A stretch of 47,939 bases of DNA from Phormidium ambiguum IAM M-71 (GTDB lineage: Bacteria > Cyanobacteriota > Cyanobacteriia > Cyanobacteriales > Aerosakkonemataceae), in assembly GCF_001904725.1 (NCBI RefSeq), contig NZ_MRCE01000049.1:1-47939 (forward strand). Reading direction: 5' to 3'. Positions 39,934 through 46,096 of this stretch are shown here, in pieces (position 1 is the first letter of the stretch; each line of letters begins with the position of its first letter). A program made the position numbers and the translations under genes. The notes beneath the pieces are model-generated. The model ran no database searches, was not told where the DNA came from, and was given only the letters and a program-made list of their open reading frames with translations.

Positions 39934-39954
39934 TTGAATGGAGATTCTCGTAGT

Positions 39955-39972
39955 TTTTGTCCGACTACTTAG
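39955..39972. repeat. 18-bp dispersed repeat, copy 1 (inverted relative to copy 2)
   Basis: TTTTGTCCGACTACTTAG here is repeated exactly, in inverted orientation, at 47884-47901; both are also linked to a CTCGT flank. An 8-bp inverted repeat (TACTTAGC at 39966, GCTAAGTA at 39987) overlaps it after the mtnA stop and could act as a weak transcript-end hairpin. Confidence 0.6.
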
Positions 39973-40059
39973 CAAAACATCATTTAGCTAAGTACTGATT
40001 CGTACAATATTTAGATGCTATGCTTCTACTGTTGATTTAAACTAGAGAACTTCCAGTCT

Positions 40060-40392
40060 GTGATATTAGAAGTAGCCATTCTTGATGTTAAACCTGGTTT
40101 AGCTCAGGAGTTTGAAATTGCTTTCAAAACTGCCTCAGCTATCATAGCTTCTATGCCAGGTTACATTTCTCATGAACTGCAACGTTGTGTAGAAACTGCG
40201 AATCGATATATTCTGCTTGTACATTGGCAAAAGTTAGAAGATCATACAGTTGGTTTCCGACAATCAGCGGAGTATCAAGAATGGCGTTCTCTACTGCATC
40301 ATTTTTATGAACCTTTCCCAACGGTTGAACATTACGAAATTGTTTTTCATTACCCCAATGTTAAACCTGGAACAGCAGAACAGTTAACTTAA
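40060..40392 (+). CDS. ABM-domain protein (antibiotic biosynthesis monooxygenase-like)
   Basis: A 110-residue ferredoxin-like alpha/beta protein. It has EVAILDVKPGLAQEFEIAFK, SMPGYISHELQRCVETANRY, ILLVHWQKLEDHTVGFRQSA and EYQEWRSLLHHFYEPFPTVE, the ABM/YgiN pattern. Members include small quinone or heme monooxygenases; the substrate here is unknown. Translation starts at GTG 40060 (no upstream ATG). It lies after mtnA, separated by 126 bases. Confidence 0.88.
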   Translation: MILEVAILDVKPGLAQEFEIAFKTASAIIASMPGYISHELQRCVETANRYILLVHWQKLEDHTVGFRQSAEYQEWRSLLHHFYEPFPTVEHYEIVFHYPNVKPGTAEQLT

Positions 40393-40549
40393 TTAAAAAT
40401 ACTCTATTTCGCCAATTGACCGAGGAGTTCACGCTTTTGCCAATGCTACTCAAATAGATCAAGAATTACGAATAGTTTTCCCATGATCAATTTAAGGCTA
40501 CTCCCAACCAGTAGCGATCGAGATCACAAAACTATATGATTTAGATCTC

Positions 40550-40587
40550 TTTACATTTATTTACAATTTGTTACATTTATTTACATA
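40550..40587 (+). promoter_or_regulatory. Four phased TTACA boxes: doubled HLR1 (RpaB) site
   Basis: TTACA starts at 40551, 40561, 40571 and 40581, exactly 10 bases apart. Each neighbouring pair fits the HLR1 consensus (G/T)TTACA(T/A)(T/A)NN(G/T)TTACA(T/A)(T/A) bound by the response regulator RpaB, so the unit is two HLR1 motifs side by side. The array ends 43 bases before the ATG of the 72-residue protein and probably overlaps its core promoter. Light or redox control by RpaB is the natural inference. Confidence 0.85.
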
Positions 40588-40629
40588 GATGAGAAACAAA
40601 GAAAAAATCAGAAATTTAGGAGATTAAAC

Positions 40630-40848
40630 ATGAAAGCTAACTATTCTTATGCCTCTGCTGTTTTCAACGCTGACTTCAACAACTTTGCACCCATCACAGC
40701 TAATCAAGCTTGGTCATTGTTCTTTACTCTAGGAAAAAATGATGCAGCATTGGGAGATAATCCAGAGGTTGGAAAGCTTTTCACTAATATAACGATCGCA
40801 TCAGTTGTTACTTTCATGTTAGGAGCTTGTATTTTCACCTCCATCTAA
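40630..40848 (+). CDS. Small membrane protein under predicted RpaB control
   Basis: A 72-residue protein: a polar, aromatic N-terminal half (MKANYSYASAVFNADFNNFA, ITANQAWSLFFTLGKND) and a C-terminal transmembrane segment (about residues 52-71, ITIASVVTFMLGACIFTS). It does not have the ExxNGRxAM motif of high-light-inducible proteins, and I know no family for it. AGGAG lies 8 bases before the ATG, four HLR1 half-sites are upstream and a strong terminator follows, so it is a complete, well-regulated gene. The position next to the iron-stress cluster suggests a thylakoid or photosystem role. Confidence 0.85.
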   Translation: MKANYSYASAVFNADFNNFAPITANQAWSLFFTLGKNDAALGDNPEVGKLFTNITIASVVTFMLGACIFTSI

Positions 40849-40881
40849 AGCATTTTATTAGCGAATTCTTCCAAAATAAAT

Positions 40882-40915
40882 CCCCGGTATGATTGAAATA
40901 CCGGGGAAATTTTTT
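40882..40915 (+). terminator. Rho-independent terminator of the 72-residue gene
   Basis: CCCCGGTAT (40882-40890) pairs perfectly with ATACCGGGG (40898-40906) around a 7-base loop, followed by AAATTTTTT. It lies 34 bases after the stop codon. It may also end transcripts of the convergent iron-stress cluster, although the minus-strand T-run is weak. Confidence 0.92.
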
Positions 40916-41001
40916 CATCAGCCAAACCTTAATCCAAAAATTAAAAATTACTTAATGTATTTGTTACCTGAGAGTTGCAGTCATAGTTAATTCCTCAAAA
41001 T

Positions 41002-41331
41002 TTAGCAATTACGTGATGAAGACATCCATTTTTTGCTTGAATTTTTCTGAAGTAAACAAATAGGCTGTGGTACTACGGGTTCATAATCTAAACAATTAAT
41101 TGCCTCTTCAGATAAAGCTTTACAGGGATGTACCGTACATTTCAAGCGATAATCTCCAGTAAAAAAAGCACAGTTAGTACAGGGAATTTGATGCAGTCGT
41201 TTTAATCTGATAATTCCATCATGTACCGCTAAACTAATTGCTAGGAAAAAGCCAACTAATACCAGCCAAATCAAAATCGGACAAAAGGGAATTACTGGAA
41301 AACAAACTGTTGTAGAAGTTGAATCAATCAT
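41002..41331 (-). CDS. Cys-rich single-pass membrane protein at the end of the isi cluster
   Basis: A 109-residue protein with one transmembrane segment (about residues 17-37, CPILIWLVLVGFFLAISLAV), then a Cys-rich soluble part. That part has CTNC, KCTVHPC and NCLDYEP between residues 51 and 83, spaced like a metal or cluster site. I recognise no named family. It starts 18 bases after the isiC stop, on the same strand, so it should be in the same iron-regulated transcript. Confidence 0.78.
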   Translation of the reverse strand: MIDSTSTTVCFPVIPFCPILIWLVLVGFFLAISLAVHDGIIRLKRLHQIPCTNCAFFTGDYRLKCTVHPCKALSEEAINCLDYEPVVPQPICLLQKNSSKKWMSSSRNC

Positions 41332-41349
41332 TATAAATCAATTACAAGT

Positions 41350-42102
41350 TTACAAACTAACTTTGAAATTTGCCAAACTAGCAGTTCTATCTTGAGATAA
41401 GGATGGTAAATCCCAAAAATCAACTATTTGTTCGCAGACTTTTTGCGGGTGGAAATAGTGAAAGAAATAACGCCCTTGGGGACATTGCCAAATTCGATCG
41501 CCTGACTTTAACCAAGACTGCCATCCTTCCAATGTATAAGGGTCAACAATAATATCATCTGCGCTGCCACAAACTAACATCGGAACCGATACTTTGCTGG
41601 GTGAAAAACTAACTCTTCTAAACAAAGTGTGAGGAGATAAAGAAGTCATGAGATCCTGTTCTAATATTTGCAGAATATCTCTAATAACTCCCGGATGTTG
41701 ATGTCCAAATAAGTTATTTACCATTTGATTTAACAGGACTTCACGGGAACAAGGAAGCTTTTGCAATTGGGCATAATAATGGCATTGCCAATCAACAGCA
41801 GGATAGGAACCGACGGAAAGAAGTGTGAGCGATCGCACTTTTTCTGGATGTTTATGTGCATAAAGTAATCCTAATAAACCGCTAGTACTATGTCCAATCA
41901 AATCTACTGGTTTAGTTTGATTCTTTAAATAATCATCTAGCAAATCTATTGCTATTTCTAAAGACATTGGTTCGTCGGGAGTTTGGCAATATTCCCATTG
42001 AGCGATCGCAACATGGTGAGATAAATGAATTAACAAAGGGCGATCGAATTGTTGTAGTGCTGGACTAACATTTAACCATAAAGCATTCGGTAATGAAGAC
42101 AT
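41350..42102 (-). CDS. isiC: Alpha/beta hydrolase IsiC
   Basis: A 250-residue alpha/beta hydrolase: nucleophile elbow GHSTSG, an acid region after PMLVCGSADDIIVDPYTLEG, and a His-containing C-terminal part (FHYFHPQKV). Together with isiA and isiB upstream this is the third gene of the iron-stress-inducible cluster. The substrate is unknown. I chose the ATG at 42102 (MSSLPNALWLN) because AGGAAA lies before it; a non-ATG start 42 bases further up is unlikely. The 109-residue gene follows closely. Confidence 0.88.
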   Translation of the reverse strand: MSSLPNALWLNVSPALQQFDRPLLIHLSHHVAIAQWEYCQTPDEPMSLEIAIDLLDDYLKNQTKPVDLIGHSTSGLLGLLYAHKHPEKVRSLTLLSVGSYPAVDWQCHYYAQLQKLPCSREVLLNQMVNNLFGHQHPGVIRDILQILEQDLMTSLSPHTLFRRVSFSPSKVSVPMLVCGSADDIIVDPYTLEGWQSWLKSGDRIWQCPQGRYFFHYFHPQKVCEQIVDFWDLPSLSQDRTASLANFKVSL

Positions 42103-42197
42103 AAGACATTTCCTTTTTGTTGACAATTTTTCTGAATTTACCAAGTAAGAAAACCGGGTTTATTGGCAGAGTTTTGGCAAAAAACCCGGATTTTAAT

Positions 42198-42710
42198 CTA
42201 TAAGCCAAACTCCCGCTTCAGTTGAGATACCCAAGTTTTAACTCGGCTATCTGTTAAATCTGATTGATTATCTTCGTCGATCGCTAATCCCACAAACTTA
42301 CCATTTTTGACTGCTTTCGACTCGTTAAAATCATATCCATCTGTAGACCAATAGCCAACGGTTTTACCGCCAAGGGAGGCAATTTTTTCCTCTAAAATCC
42401 CGATCGCATCTTGAAAGTTATCAGCATAACCAATTTGATCGCCAGCACCAAAATAGGCAACTTTCTTCCCATTAAAATCTATGTTTTCTAACTCATCAGA
42501 GAAGCCTTCCCAATCAGCTTGCAATTCTCCCACATTCCAGGTTGGGCAACCGATGATAATGCAGTCGTAATCATCAAAATCGCCAGCTTCACTACTAGAA
42601 ATATCATGTAAATCAACTACGCCATCGCCACCCAATTCTTTTTGAATTAATTCAGCGATCGTTTCTGTATTTCCGGTTTGAGTTCCGTAAAATAAACCAA
42701 CTTTTGCCAT
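42198..42710 (-). CDS. isiB: Flavodoxin
   Basis: A 170-residue FMN protein: KVGLFYGTQTGNTETIAELI binds the FMN phosphate, CPTWNVGELQADWEGF and FGAGDQIGYADNFQDAIGIL form the isoalloxazine loops. Flavodoxin replaces ferredoxin in photosynthetic electron transport when iron is scarce. It lies between the zinc-ribbon gene and isiC in the iron-stress cluster, all leftward. Confidence 0.97.
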   Translation of the reverse strand: MAKVGLFYGTQTGNTETIAELIQKELGGDGVVDLHDISSSEAGDFDDYDCIIIGCPTWNVGELQADWEGFSDELENIDFNGKKVAYFGAGDQIGYADNFQDAIGILEEKIASLGGKTVGYWSTDGYDFNESKAVKNGKFVGLAIDEDNQSDLTDSRVKTWVSQLKREFGL

Positions 42711-42761
42711 TTTCTTTCCTAGTTTAATTGAATGTTTCTGTCATCTCGGCAGAGCTAGAAA

Positions 42762-42962
42762 CTATGCAGCATTTTTAATTGGCTGCTCATGAATGTATAA
42801 CCAACTTTGAGGATTTGGTTTTGCAGAATTTTCTTGTTGCAACAATAGCTGATTGACATCTTCTGAAGCTGGCATTGTTTGACGACAAGAAGGACAATAC
42901 CAGTACAAACCTTTTCGATCGATATGGCGCAATAGTTTTCCAGAACAGCAAGGACAGTTCAT
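42762..42962 (-). CDS. Small zinc-ribbon protein between isiA and isiB
   Basis: A 66-residue protein with two CxxC pairs: MNCPCCSGKLLRHIDRKGLY and YCPSCRQTMPASEDVNQLL. The spacing fits a zinc ribbon that could bind zinc or iron. The tail (NPQSWLYIHEQPIKNAA) is polar. I recognise no named family. The gene lies 78 bases after isiA and 51 before isiB on the same strand, so it is probably co-expressed under iron stress. Confidence 0.8.
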   Translation of the reverse strand: MNCPCCSGKLLRHIDRKGLYWYCPSCRQTMPASEDVNQLLLQQENSAKPNPQSWLYIHEQPIKNAA

Positions 42963-43040
42963 AATTAAAAAAGTGTGAGGAGGATCGGCTAAGAAGTAGA
43001 CGAGTCAATAAATAACTCATCTATTGATTTTCAAAAGAAG

Positions 43041-44069
43041 TTAAACTTCTACAGAATTCAAAGCTTTTTCAACTCGCTTGAAATCAAATCCCATTGCTCT
43101 AAGTGCGTGCCACAAATGACCTTGCAAGAAGAAGAAAGCCAGGAAAAAGTGAGTATTTGCTAACCAAGCACGGGATGTATGATCGCCCAATGGTAAATTT
43201 ACTGTATCGGCAAAGTACGGCGTAATTCCCATTTTTACTGTCAAGGTTGGGCCATAAAATTCTACTGGATAAGCTAGGGTATTTACGGCACAGAAATAAG
43301 CCGCTACAAAACCAGCCAAAGCAATACCACCTAACGAGTAAGAAAGAATCGCTTCACCGGAAAAGATTAACACTTTCTTTGCCCATTTCAATGGTGGAAC
43401 TAAGATATGCCAAATCCCTCCAGCAATCAACATTACACCGACATAAATGTGACCGCCAACTAAGTCTTCTAAGTTATCAACGCTAGCAAAGTGAGTTTGA
43501 TAACCGTAGATTACAAATGGATCGAGTGTCGGTTCGGTGACGATGCGAACAGTTTGACTTGCTGCATCATAAAGTCCGCCCCAGTACATCGCTTTAGCAA
43601 CTAGCAATAAAGCGCCAACTCCCAAAAATAAGAGATGATGCCCCAAAATTATTCCTAATTGTTTGGGATCGTTCCAATCAAAATGGAATTTTTTAGCTTG
43701 ACCAGAGGCTGTTTTCAGGTCTTCTGGTGCTCTGAGAGTGTGGAATAACGCCCCTGCACCGAGTACGGCTGAAGAAATTAGGTGAACTGCACCAACGACA
43801 AAGAACGGATAAGTATCAACAACTTTTCCCCCATCACCAACACCTAAGCCAAGGGTAGCTAAGTGAGGTAAGAGAATCAGCCCTTGTTCGCCCATCGCAC
43901 GAGTTGGGTCAAACCAAGAAATTTCAAACAGTGTAAATGCTCCCGCCCAGAAGGTAATCAAAGCGGCTTGGGCAACGTGAGCCGCAATAAATAAGCCGCT
44001 GAGGTTGGCAAACCGGGCATTACCCGCCCACCAGTCATATTTCACAGTTGGATTTTCGTAAGTCTGCAT
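43041..44069 (-). CDS. isiA: Iron-stress-induced chlorophyll-binding protein IsiA (CP43')
   Basis: A 342-residue, six-helix chlorophyll protein of the CP43/Pcb family. It opens [20 protein letters not shown], has paired His in the helices ([49 protein letters not shown]), and ends [20 protein letters not shown]. It lacks the large lumenal loop of PsbC, hence the shorter length. IsiA forms antenna rings around photosystem I under iron limitation. I chose ATG 44069, which gives the usual start; an upstream non-ATG start adds 17 residues. It heads the leftward iron-stress cluster. Confidence 0.97.
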
Positions 44070-44210
44070 AGTGTTCAGGAATTGATAAACATTGGGCTTG
44101 TTGAATATCTTTCTCAACAAACTCTGAAATGTAGTTTAGAATCTTTCTCAATAAATAGAGGTTAAGTTTTGTTAAAAAATGGATTTTGGGGTAGCGATGA
44201 AAACAAAGGC

Positions 44211-44233
44211 GGGCAGGATGCCCACCCCACAAG
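44211..44233. repeat. CAGGATGCC(C/T)ACCC(C/T)ACAAG dispersed repeat, first copy
   Basis: GGGCAGGATGCCCACCCCAC then AAG here matches AGGCAGGATGCCTACCCTAC then AAG at 44502-44524. The two near-identical 23-base copies flank the isiA upstream region and the ABC ATPase fragment. This is another common cyanobacterial intergenic repeat. Confidence 0.7.
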
Positions 44234-44325
44234 AAAGTTGTAACTCCTGTGAGATGGGCATCTTGACCGCTTTGTTTATTGATTTTTCCGCAAAGCTTTA
44301 GGTCATGCGCGTGCATCGATCGCAC

Positions 44326-44403
44326 ATAGTATTGAGAAAGCTTCAAATTAATTAGGAATGAATATCAATACAGAGTTAGAAAATATTGCATTGTTGCAAT
44401 ATT
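44326..44403 (-). promoter_or_regulatory. Candidate isiA promoter with Fur-like box and an adjacent palindrome
   Basis: On the minus strand, 44372-44354 matches the Fur consensus at 12 of 19 positions, including TGATATTCATT against TGATAATCATT (10 of 11). A TACTAT -10-like hexamer lies downstream at 44331-44326. Just upstream, AATATTGCA (44382-44390) and TGCAATATT (44395-44403) form a perfect 9-bp inverted repeat around four bases. The leader to the isiA ATG would be about 250 bases, long as in other isiA genes. Site assignments are inference. Confidence 0.45.
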
Positions 44404-44418
44404 CCCTAATTCACCTTC

Positions 44419-44496
44419 AAGGATAGAGGGTATGACCAGTAGCGGAATCAAAAATAAACAGATGATTTAGATCGAATTGTACAGAAATACGATCGC
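44419..44496 (-). pseudogene. Duplicated C-terminal fragment of the ABC ATPase gene
   Basis: The minus strand encodes RISVQFDLNHLFIFDSATGH then TLYP and a stop, almost the same as the last 26 residues of the ATPase at 44981-46096 (RISVQFDLNHLFIFDSASGN TLYPLR). The DNA matches closely, ends in the same GCGATCG context and is bordered by a dispersed repeat copy at 44502. It is a partial duplication left upstream of isiA. Confidence 0.85.
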
Positions 44497-44542
44497 TAGG
44501 CAGGCAGGATGCCTACCCTACAAGAGTTATTGGAGAGGTCTA

Positions 44543-44923
44543 TTAGCAATTTGGCAATGGTGGAATTCTGGCTAAAATTCCCTTTTTCAAAACTTCAGGA
44601 CGCTCTTGGTAAGGTACTATTCCATCAGGGCTAGCATAATATTGTTCTGCTAATTGTAGAATCGCAGAGGCGCTTTCTAATGGTGGTAAGTCGCCAAACA
44701 TTAAGGTAGTTTTATTAGCAGCGGAAAAGGCGATCGCACAAGATCGGCTACAGCCACTTAAACAGGAGACTGGTTCAATTCTATACTGCGATCGCAAATT
44801 CCATTCTGCTTGCAAATCTAACAAGTTTTGCAGTAAATGATAACCGCCAGATTCCCCTAAATGTTCGCGCTGACTAGACGAAAAAGCGCAGGATTTACAG
44901 ACAAATAAAACGTGCTTAGTCAT
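44543..44923 (-). CDS. DUF1636 metal-binding protein
   Basis: A 126-residue protein: MTKHVLFVCKSCAFSSSQRE with Cys9 and Cys12, and VSCLSGCSRSCAIAFSAANK with further cysteines. This four-Cys arrangement on a thioredoxin-like ferredoxin fold is the DUF1636 pattern, which can hold a metal or Fe-S cluster. Function is unknown. It lies 57 bases after the ABC ATPase gene on the same strand, and the ATPase fragment follows. Confidence 0.88.
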   Translation of the reverse strand: MTKHVLFVCKSCAFSSSQREHLGESGGYHLLQNLLDLQAEWNLRSQYRIEPVSCLSGCSRSCAIAFSAANKTTLMFGDLPPLESASAILQLAEQYYASPDGIVPYQERPEVLKKGILARIPPLPNC

Positions 44924-44980
44924 GTTTCTTTACTTTGAACAACTCGCCTTAATATTAAACAACAAAGCCAGATTATCAAC

Positions 44981-46096
44981 TTATCTTAAAGGATAGAGAG
45001 TATTACCACTAGCAGAATCAAAAATAAACAAGTGGTTTAAATCAAATTGTACAGAAATGCGATCGCCAACTCTCCCACACCAATCACCAGAAGCTAACAC
45101 ATCCATCTGCAAATCTAACCCAAATAAACTAACCCGAACTAAAGTCTCTCTTCCCAAAGGTTCAATAACTTTCACCTCAACAAACAACTCTCCTTCTTCC
45201 TCTTCTCTGCGTTCTCTGTGTCTCTGCGGTTCAATTAAATTTATATGTTCAGGACGAATACCCAAATCTAAACCTTGCCCTTCCCTTAACTGCAACTTAT
45301 CCCGCACAAACCCTGGACAACCTAACACTTCTTCCCCGATTTTAAACACCTCACCCGTATAAATAGCAGGTAAAATATTCATCTTTGGATTACCCAAAAA
45401 AGTCGCCACCATGCGATTAACCGGATGAGCATAAATTTTCTGTGGTTCACCAATTTGTTGAATTTTCCCCCGATTTAAAACTATAATTTTATCAGCCAAA
45501 GTCATTGCCTCAGTTTGATCGTGAGTCACATAAATAGTAGTAACTCCCACTCTTTGATGTAATTGTTTTAATTCTGCTCTGGTATCATCGCGCAATTGAG
45601 CATCTAAATTCGACAAAGGTTCATCTAACAAAAATACTTTTGGTTCTCGCGCGATCGCTCTTCCCAAAGCAACTCTTTGTTGTTGTCCTCCCGACAATTG
45701 TTTTGGTTTGCGATCTAAAAGATGGGAAATATCGAGCGATCGGGCCACTTTTTCCACTCTTTCTTTAATTATTCTAGGTTCAACCTTTCGCATTTGTAAC
45801 CCAAAAGCCAAATTTTCCCTGACTGTTTTATGAGGATAAAGGGCATAATTTTGAAATACCATTGCCACATCCCGTTGACGTGCAGGGACATGATTTACTA
45901 AATCCTCGCCAATATAAACCCCACCACTAGTAGCAGATTCTAAACCTGCGATCGTTCTTAATATTGTAGACTTGCCGCAACCCGAAGGGCCAACTAATAC
46001 CCAAAATTCCCCATCAGGAACTTCAAAAGAAATGTCTTCAATAGCGGTAACATTATTAAATCTGCGGGTAACTTCTGTTAGTTTGACTTTTGCCAT
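44981..46096 (-). CDS. ugpC: UgpC/MalK-type ABC transporter ATPase
   Basis: A 371-residue importer ATPase: Walker A GPSGCGKST (about residues 37-45), signature LSGGQQQRVALGRA, Walker B FLLDEPLSNLDAQLR, H-loop in THDQTEAMTLAD, then a C-terminal TOBE/OB region (about 240-371). This class energises uptake of sugars, polyols or glycerol-3-phosphate. No permease or binding protein is near, so the substrate is unknown and the ATPase may be shared. Residues around 292-303 (EPQRHRERREEEEGE) are encoded by an intergenic-type repeat and are probably a tolerated insertion in a loop. Confidence 0.93.
   Translation of the reverse strand: MAKVKLTEVTRRFNNVTAIEDISFEVPDGEFWVLVGPSGCGKSTILRTIAGLESATSGGVYIGEDLVNHVPARQRDVAMVFQNYALYPHKTVRENLAFGLQMRKVEPRIIKERVEKVARSLDISHLLDRKPKQLSGGQQQRVALGRAIAREPKVFLLDEPLSNLDAQLRDDTRAELKQLHQRVGVTTIYVTHDQTEAMTLADKIIVLNRGKIQQIGEPQKIYAHPVNRMVATFLGNPKMNILPAIYTGEVFKIGEEVLGCPGFVRDKLQLREGQGLDLGIRPEHINLIEPQRHRERREEEEGELFVEVKVIEPLGRETLVRVSLFGLDLQMDVLASGDWCGRVGDRISVQFDLNHLFIFDSASGNTLYPLR
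45191..45234. repeat. Intergenic-type repeat inside the ATPase coding sequence
   Basis: TCCTTCTTCCTCTTCTCTGC followed by GTTCTCTGTGTCTCTGCGGT and TCAA is the common cyanobacterial CTCTGCGTTCTCTGTG intergenic phrase. Here it lies in frame in the ugpC gene and encodes EPQRHRERREEEEG. Confidence 0.75.

Follow-up and report, generated by a model that had tools for sequence, protein, structure and literature searches.

In Phormidium ambiguum IAM M-71 the gene lilA stands alone behind a promoter carrying four TTACA boxes in register; among its relatives, judged by gene order, it usually follows hli or psb34 as second cistron of an HLR1-controlled unit. It is probable that the hli cistron of such a unit has been deleted, leaving lilA directly behind the unit's four-box promoter, and that the gene is repressed by RpaB and released in high light. 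The window is the whole stretch of DNA analysed, 47,939 nucleotides of contig NZ_MRCE01000049.1. Its lilA unit is set out below, with G030 denoting the genome that holds the nearest relative, from the same order and another family.

40512..40612, + strand: promoter and leader, 78% identical to their homologue upstream of hli-lilA in G030 (C71:44379-44478)
40550..40577, + strand: sigma-70-like hexamers TTTACA-16-TACATT, a putative core promoter overlapping boxes 1 and 3 (9 of 12, TG before the second hexamer)
40551..40585, + strand: HLR1 array of four TTACA boxes at an exact 10-bp period (40551, 40561, 40571, 40581), found in the sequence and conserved in the family
40605..40612, no strand: junction where the hli cistron of G030 (C71:44478-44708) is absent; the matching blocks overlap by 8 nt in the window and are 248 nt apart in G030
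40618..40622, + strand: AGGAG ribosome-binding site, 7 nt before the ATG at 40630
40630..40848, + strand: lilA, an open reading frame of 72 aa with one predicted TM helix; family assigned by homology
40881..40907, + strand: terminator-like hairpin closing the lilA unit, with its T-tract on the + strand; a similar sequence lies behind lilA in G030

The four boxes at 10-bp spacing, the AGGAG site and the 72-residue single-TM protein had been described in an earlier reading made without database searches (the sequence-only reading), and all are confirmed, the boxes on the + strand. The protein has one hydrophobic stretch; its 19-residue windows scoring above 1.2 all start at residues 46 to 54, with the maximum at 54-72. 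The terminator of that reading is better called terminator-like, with two such hairpins matched in the 1.4 kb scanned and 0.8 expected. Sigma-70-like hexamers are likewise matched near the chance rate (seven in 1.4 kb, where shuffles give 4.5), and the putative core promoter is therefore only consistent with the sequence.

The array is exceptional in its genome. The window has three occurrences of TTACAN5TTACA, all within the array, where 0.14 would be expected from dinucleotide shuffles and three were reached in 0 of 100 shuffles. Across the 7.41-Mb genome (90 contigs), TTACAN5TTACAN5TTACA occurs at two overlapping positions, both in the array, and the reversed-pattern control at none; the array is unique as a triple-box site in its own genome. 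The HLR1 consensus KTTACAWW-N2-KTTACAWW, as printed in PMC13421787 (this and the other papers cited are represented by extracts), has 11 exact matches in the genome and none in the reversed control. Three of these are in the array (40550, 40560 and 40570), so the array is best described as three overlapping registers and not as two separate HLR1 elements, and the 'doubled' site of the sequence-only reading is not supported. The remaining eight matches comprise three before psb34 genes and five elsewhere, with none before an hli. There are four psb34 genes in the genome (L147-L150 on C45, C51, C46 and C4), and three of them carry the identical exact HLR1 GTTACATTTATTTACATA, its match starting 41, 44 and 53 bp before the ATG. 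On C11 there is also an HliA/B-type hli, whose TTACA boxes are 21 bp apart; the organism therefore still has Hlips.

No family had been known for the 72-aa protein in the sequence-only reading, but a scan of one-genome-per-species contigs identified 124 relatives and retained the best 80. The genome itself has one lilA copy; a second match, with an E value of 1.6 and an internal stop, was excluded from the count. Of 386 genomes sampled from the phylum, 49 have a LilA profile match, and a single-protein search found LilA in 46 of 195 genomes of the order and 5 of 10 of the family, the genome under study being included in each of these counts. The one other genome of the genus gave no LilA match. 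The comparison set consists of 117 distinct loci including the window, with duplicates removed and start codons chosen by script. All 117 genes are open to a stop and encode 68 to 91 aa, and a QAW[SA]LF core, as defined in the present comparison and not in print, is shared by 114 of the 117, the window protein among them.

Upstream of lilA there is an hli judged intact at 67 loci, an hli flagged as damaged at 15, psb34 at 10, a broken psb34 at one, and neither at 24, meaning no Hlip or Psb34 match (E 1e-4) within 600 bp. The 15 script-flagged loci overstate the damage, since unusual starts, truncated matches and one gene cut by a contig end (L051) are among them. An in-frame stop within the aligned hli, with lilA intact, is present at eight Nostoc loci (L013, L017, L020, L021, L030, L032, L036 and L059). 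All 27 of the upstream Hlips tested match PF00504 with E values of 0.01 or better, and seven upstream Psb34 sequences (one a fragment) score 75.7 to 94.3 bits against the NCBIfam Psb34 model, where the cut-off is 45. The sequences that precede lilA in Trichocoleus and others, first taken for a 'degenerate Hlip', are Psb34, and that reading was rejected. At two loci (L104 and L115) the order is reversed, with an hli-like match approximately 360 bp downstream of lilA and no hli upstream.

The order of hli followed by this gene matches the hliB-lilA operon of Synechocystis sp. PCC 6803, reported as ssr2595-slr1544 (PMC7372957), and the family of the 72-aa protein is thus LilA by synteny. Synechocystis salina is among the loci with an hli upstream, and its homologue (L023), used as a stand-in for Slr1544, is 55% identical over residues 7-65. 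Membership of the family is backed by an hli at 82 of the 117 loci (15 of them flagged); the window gene, having no hli, joins through its 81% identity to the lilA of G030. The window protein is LilA, as named from gene order. No Pfam, NCBIfam or PHROGs model matches the window protein, the LilA family profile has no match among PDB sequences, and no phage record matches. Seven plasmid records do, all seven labelled 'hypothetical protein'. Scattered, single Pfam matches among 51 LilA members (E 0.085-0.3) were taken as chance. The AlphaFold model of the window LilA is poor (mean pLDDT 66, pTM 0.36), with predicted helices at residues 24-43 and 45-71, the second having a pLDDT of 66-88 by block.

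The boxes are conserved with the gene at most loci. An exact TTACA pair at 10 or 20 bp is present within 450 bp upstream of lilA at 84 of the 117 loci, against a mean of 0.38 and a maximum of 3 in shuffles, while the downstream control gives 0 of 117 and the opposite strand 0. The spacing is 10 bp at 41 loci and 20 bp at 58, with no other value from 6 to 25 bp found at more than five. In a count of 104 loci, 72 have pairs; the control words TGTAA, AATGT, TTCAA and TTACC have none, and ACATT, which overlaps TTACATT, has 13 of 104 at 10 or 20 bp. The pair precedes the partner gene, 200 bp or more upstream, at 58 of the 67 loci with an intact hli, 7 of the 15 with a flagged hli and 7 of the 11 with psb34. 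At the 24 partnerless loci it is within 130 bp of lilA in 11, further up in one and absent in 12. In many homologues the boxes lie approximately 300 bp upstream, and for this reason a long leader or small RNA was first suspected; a structured leader or small RNA was rejected, the 'leader' being an hli gene, and the interval from boxes to gene gave no Rfam match in the window or in the 12 loci tested. The pair counts support the TTACA boxes before lilA as a conserved HLR1-type element. The sequence-only reading had named homologues that consistently lack such boxes as grounds for its refutation, and the loci do not show this, though 33 of the 117 have no exact pair, including the 12 partnerless loci already mentioned.

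It is the comparison with G030 that points to a missing gene. There, four boxes at a 10-bp period and a leader precede a 76-codon hli, which is followed by lilA and by a gene with an OCP N-domain (PF09150) running off the contig. Four exact boxes in register are found only in the window and G030 among 104 distinct loci, with three boxes in 12. Beyond the promoter and leader block listed above, window positions 40605-40915 match 44727-45027 of the G030 contig at 77%. The hli open reading frame of G030 is C71:44478-44708; what the window lacks is therefore the hli cistron plus a few bases behind it. Window and G030 are sisters in the LilA tree (100/91), within a ten-row set (100/97) made up of these two, the partnerless L098, six psb34 rows and one broken psb34 row. 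This LilA tree, of 83 rows thinned from the 117 and 79 columns, leaves 29 of its 80 inner branches open, so its counts of change are rough.

Deletion of the hli cistron in the window lineage is the most likely history, as opposed to insertion of hli in G030. It is favoured because the window has kept the hli leader and because hli has decayed beside an intact lilA at the eight Nostoc loci, few of which are independent and to which the evidence for decay is limited. The tree alone leaves the direction undecided, the next row being the partnerless L098 and the rest of the clade psb34. It could be that a solitary lilA came first in this clade and that G030 gained an hli behind the shared promoter, which would leave the gene and its RpaB control the same. 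The states of the window, G030 and L098 (none, hli, none, with psb34 loci beside them) would suit this history, and boxes also stand directly before lilA in deeper rows, L193, L194 and L198 among them. Against it speak the extent of the missing DNA, precisely a single cistron whose hli leader the window retains, and the survival of lilA beside decayed hli genes elsewhere, and we regard it as unlikely, if worth keeping in mind. Further back, it is possible that lilA captured its promoter from a psb34 gene, since the window promoter resembles psb34 promoters of G006 (81%) and G030 (83%) over approximately 60 bp.

Control of lilA would rest with the array. By analogy with Synechocystis 6803, where hliB opens the hliB-lilA operon and RpaB is reported to bind the hliB HLR1 (PMC4361706, citing Kappell and van Waasbergen 2007), RpaB would in low light occupy the boxes overlapping the putative core promoter and block RNA polymerase. 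In high light, or with a reduced electron transport chain, it would leave, and a short lilA mRNA would be made. The light and redox response is likewise taken over from Synechocystis. There, scpB, scpD and lilA are described as the most up-regulated genes in one high-light, high-CO2 experiment (PMC6331805), and slr1544 as 17.8-fold up in an electron transport mutant at 70 umol photons, with an 'I' in an inhibitor column (PMC10743179). The light or redox control through HLR1 proposed in the sequence-only reading thus stands as regards a conserved element, while the response of lilA and the binding of RpaB at the hliB HLR1 are those reported for Synechocystis.

According to the extract of PMC13421787, the position of an HLR1 decides the sign of regulation, and the class overlapping the -35 and -10 is tied to repression. 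This leaves some room for RpaB as an activator: as in photosystem I genes, the array would then precede the true start, and expression would fall in high light. The start of the last box is 49 bp from the ATG, however, boxes 1 and 3 overlap the -35/-10-like hexamers (themselves near the chance rate), and both lilA and hliB are reported to be high-light-induced in Synechocystis (PMC6331805, PMC4361706). Activation is accordingly improbable, and repression by RpaB is the mode that we infer for this organism.

The single-TM LilA would be expected in the thylakoid, where it probably helps PSII assembly or repair. This role is suggested by its alternative neighbours, whose products, Hli and Psb34 proteins, are reported competitors for one CP47 site (PMC9458560), and by the association of LilA with HliB and HliC, as reported for Synechocystis (PMC7496141). 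One paper places LilA in the SCP family, with the reservation 'related to a lesser extent' (PMC6331805). PF00504 matches none of 51 LilA members, and the chlorophyll-binding motif ExxNGR (E..NGR) is present in 0 of 117; 101 of 117 have E.G[RK], with a spacing unlike that of ExxNGR. With hhalign, LilA scores 0.2% against Hlip and 0.6% against Psb34, and the positive control of Psb34 against Hlip 97.9%, although the LilA negatives carry limited weight, because the profiles are shallow (Neff about 2) as well as short. The control agrees with the N-terminal arm that Psb34 and Hlip are reported to share (PMC9458560). Since LilA has no Hlip signature, the name 'light-harvesting-like' may be questioned.

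We tentatively raise, as a somewhat doubtful proposal, that LilA is unrelated to light-harvesting proteins and instead acts as a separate factor in PSII assembly or repair, at the site on CP47 that HliA/B and Psb34 presumably occupy by turns. If true, this would explain why the operon partner is now hli and now psb34, why lilA is intact where hli decays, and why it stands alone under a four-box HLR1. A PSII assembly intermediate described in PMC9458560 has an unassigned helix beside the Psb34 homologue, and LilA might be that helix. A whole-word search of a limited literature collection found no paper naming both Psb34 and LilA. In the literature surveyed, as represented by extracts, lilA is strongly high-light-induced in Synechocystis, yet no function is given for it. 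The exchange of hli and psb34 beside lilA, coupled with the reported competition at CP47, offers a concrete place to look for its role, and a genome in which lilA is under HLR1 without an hli neighbour lets the effects of both be separated.

The sequence-only reading had also tied the protein to isiA. The block 39934-44980 contains, by Pfam, genes for an ABM-domain protein, lilA, a 109-aa protein, an alpha/beta hydrolase, flavodoxin, a 66-aa protein, a PSII-antenna protein and DUF1636, among which are those we take to be isiA, isiB and isiC. The identity of isiA is supported by an IsrR match (RF01419, 127 bits, gathering 52) at 43499-43676 on the + strand, inside the PSII-antenna gene (43041-44120) and on the opposite strand to it, IsrR being the antisense RNA of isiA. 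G006, of the same genus (L131, C155), is 90-91% identical on both sides and has pilin-like and Uma2 genes in place of the 5-kb block. An 82-bp diverged direct repeat (44416-44497 and 44986-45067) holds a second copy of the 3' end of a MalK-like ABC gene, beyond the DUF1636 segment, and is perhaps a trace of how the block arose.

Within the flanks compared (3 kb for most of L003-L082 and about 1.5 kb for L091-L119), isiA, flavodoxin, isiC, ABM, 109-aa, 66-aa and mtnA genes are near lilA in 0 of 109 other loci, 6 of which are duplicates. DUF1636 is near lilA in 3 of the 109, and an OCP N-domain gene in 25. The latter is divergent and upstream in 24 Nostocales loci (L013 to L082) and downstream in G030 (L120:18964-19215). 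In two loci, lilA is followed after a few hundred bases by a cobalamin riboswitch (L048:3761-3903 and L064:3324-3469). The link between isiA and lilA is, on this gene order, local and not conserved, and a conserved iron partnership was rejected; the role that had been tied to isiA is not supported, given the 0 of 109 loci within these flanks and the lack of the block at this place in G006. That lilA belongs to an iron-controlled stress unit with isiA, which ends 2.2 kb away in the same block that G006 lacks at this place, seems highly improbable. An extract of an iron-regulator paper lists slr1544 in a gene table with a value of 2.07 (PMC11221513); against this, none of the 109 other loci has isiA, flavodoxin, isiC or ABM genes near lilA within the flanks compared, and in the window the isi genes lie on the opposite strand and beyond the terminator-like hairpin.

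Among known systems, the lilA unit is closest to the hliB-lilA operon, with HLR1-type boxes and lilA in one unit, as in Synechocystis salina and its relatives, where boxes, hli and lilA follow one another. It differs in having no hli cistron, in lilA being first, and in having four boxes rather than two or three. As an HLR1/RpaB element, the array fits the exact consensus in three registers and is set apart by its four boxes in register. LilA resembles the Hlips/SCPs (PF00504) in being small, with one TM helix and HLR1 control, but has neither E..NGR nor profile similarity to them. With psb34 (ssl1498, a PSII assembly factor) the likeness is one of genes, psb34 preceding lilA at 11 of the 117 loci and carrying the box pair GTTACATTTATTTACATA in this genome, whereas the LilA protein has no Psb34 or Hlip N-terminal arm.
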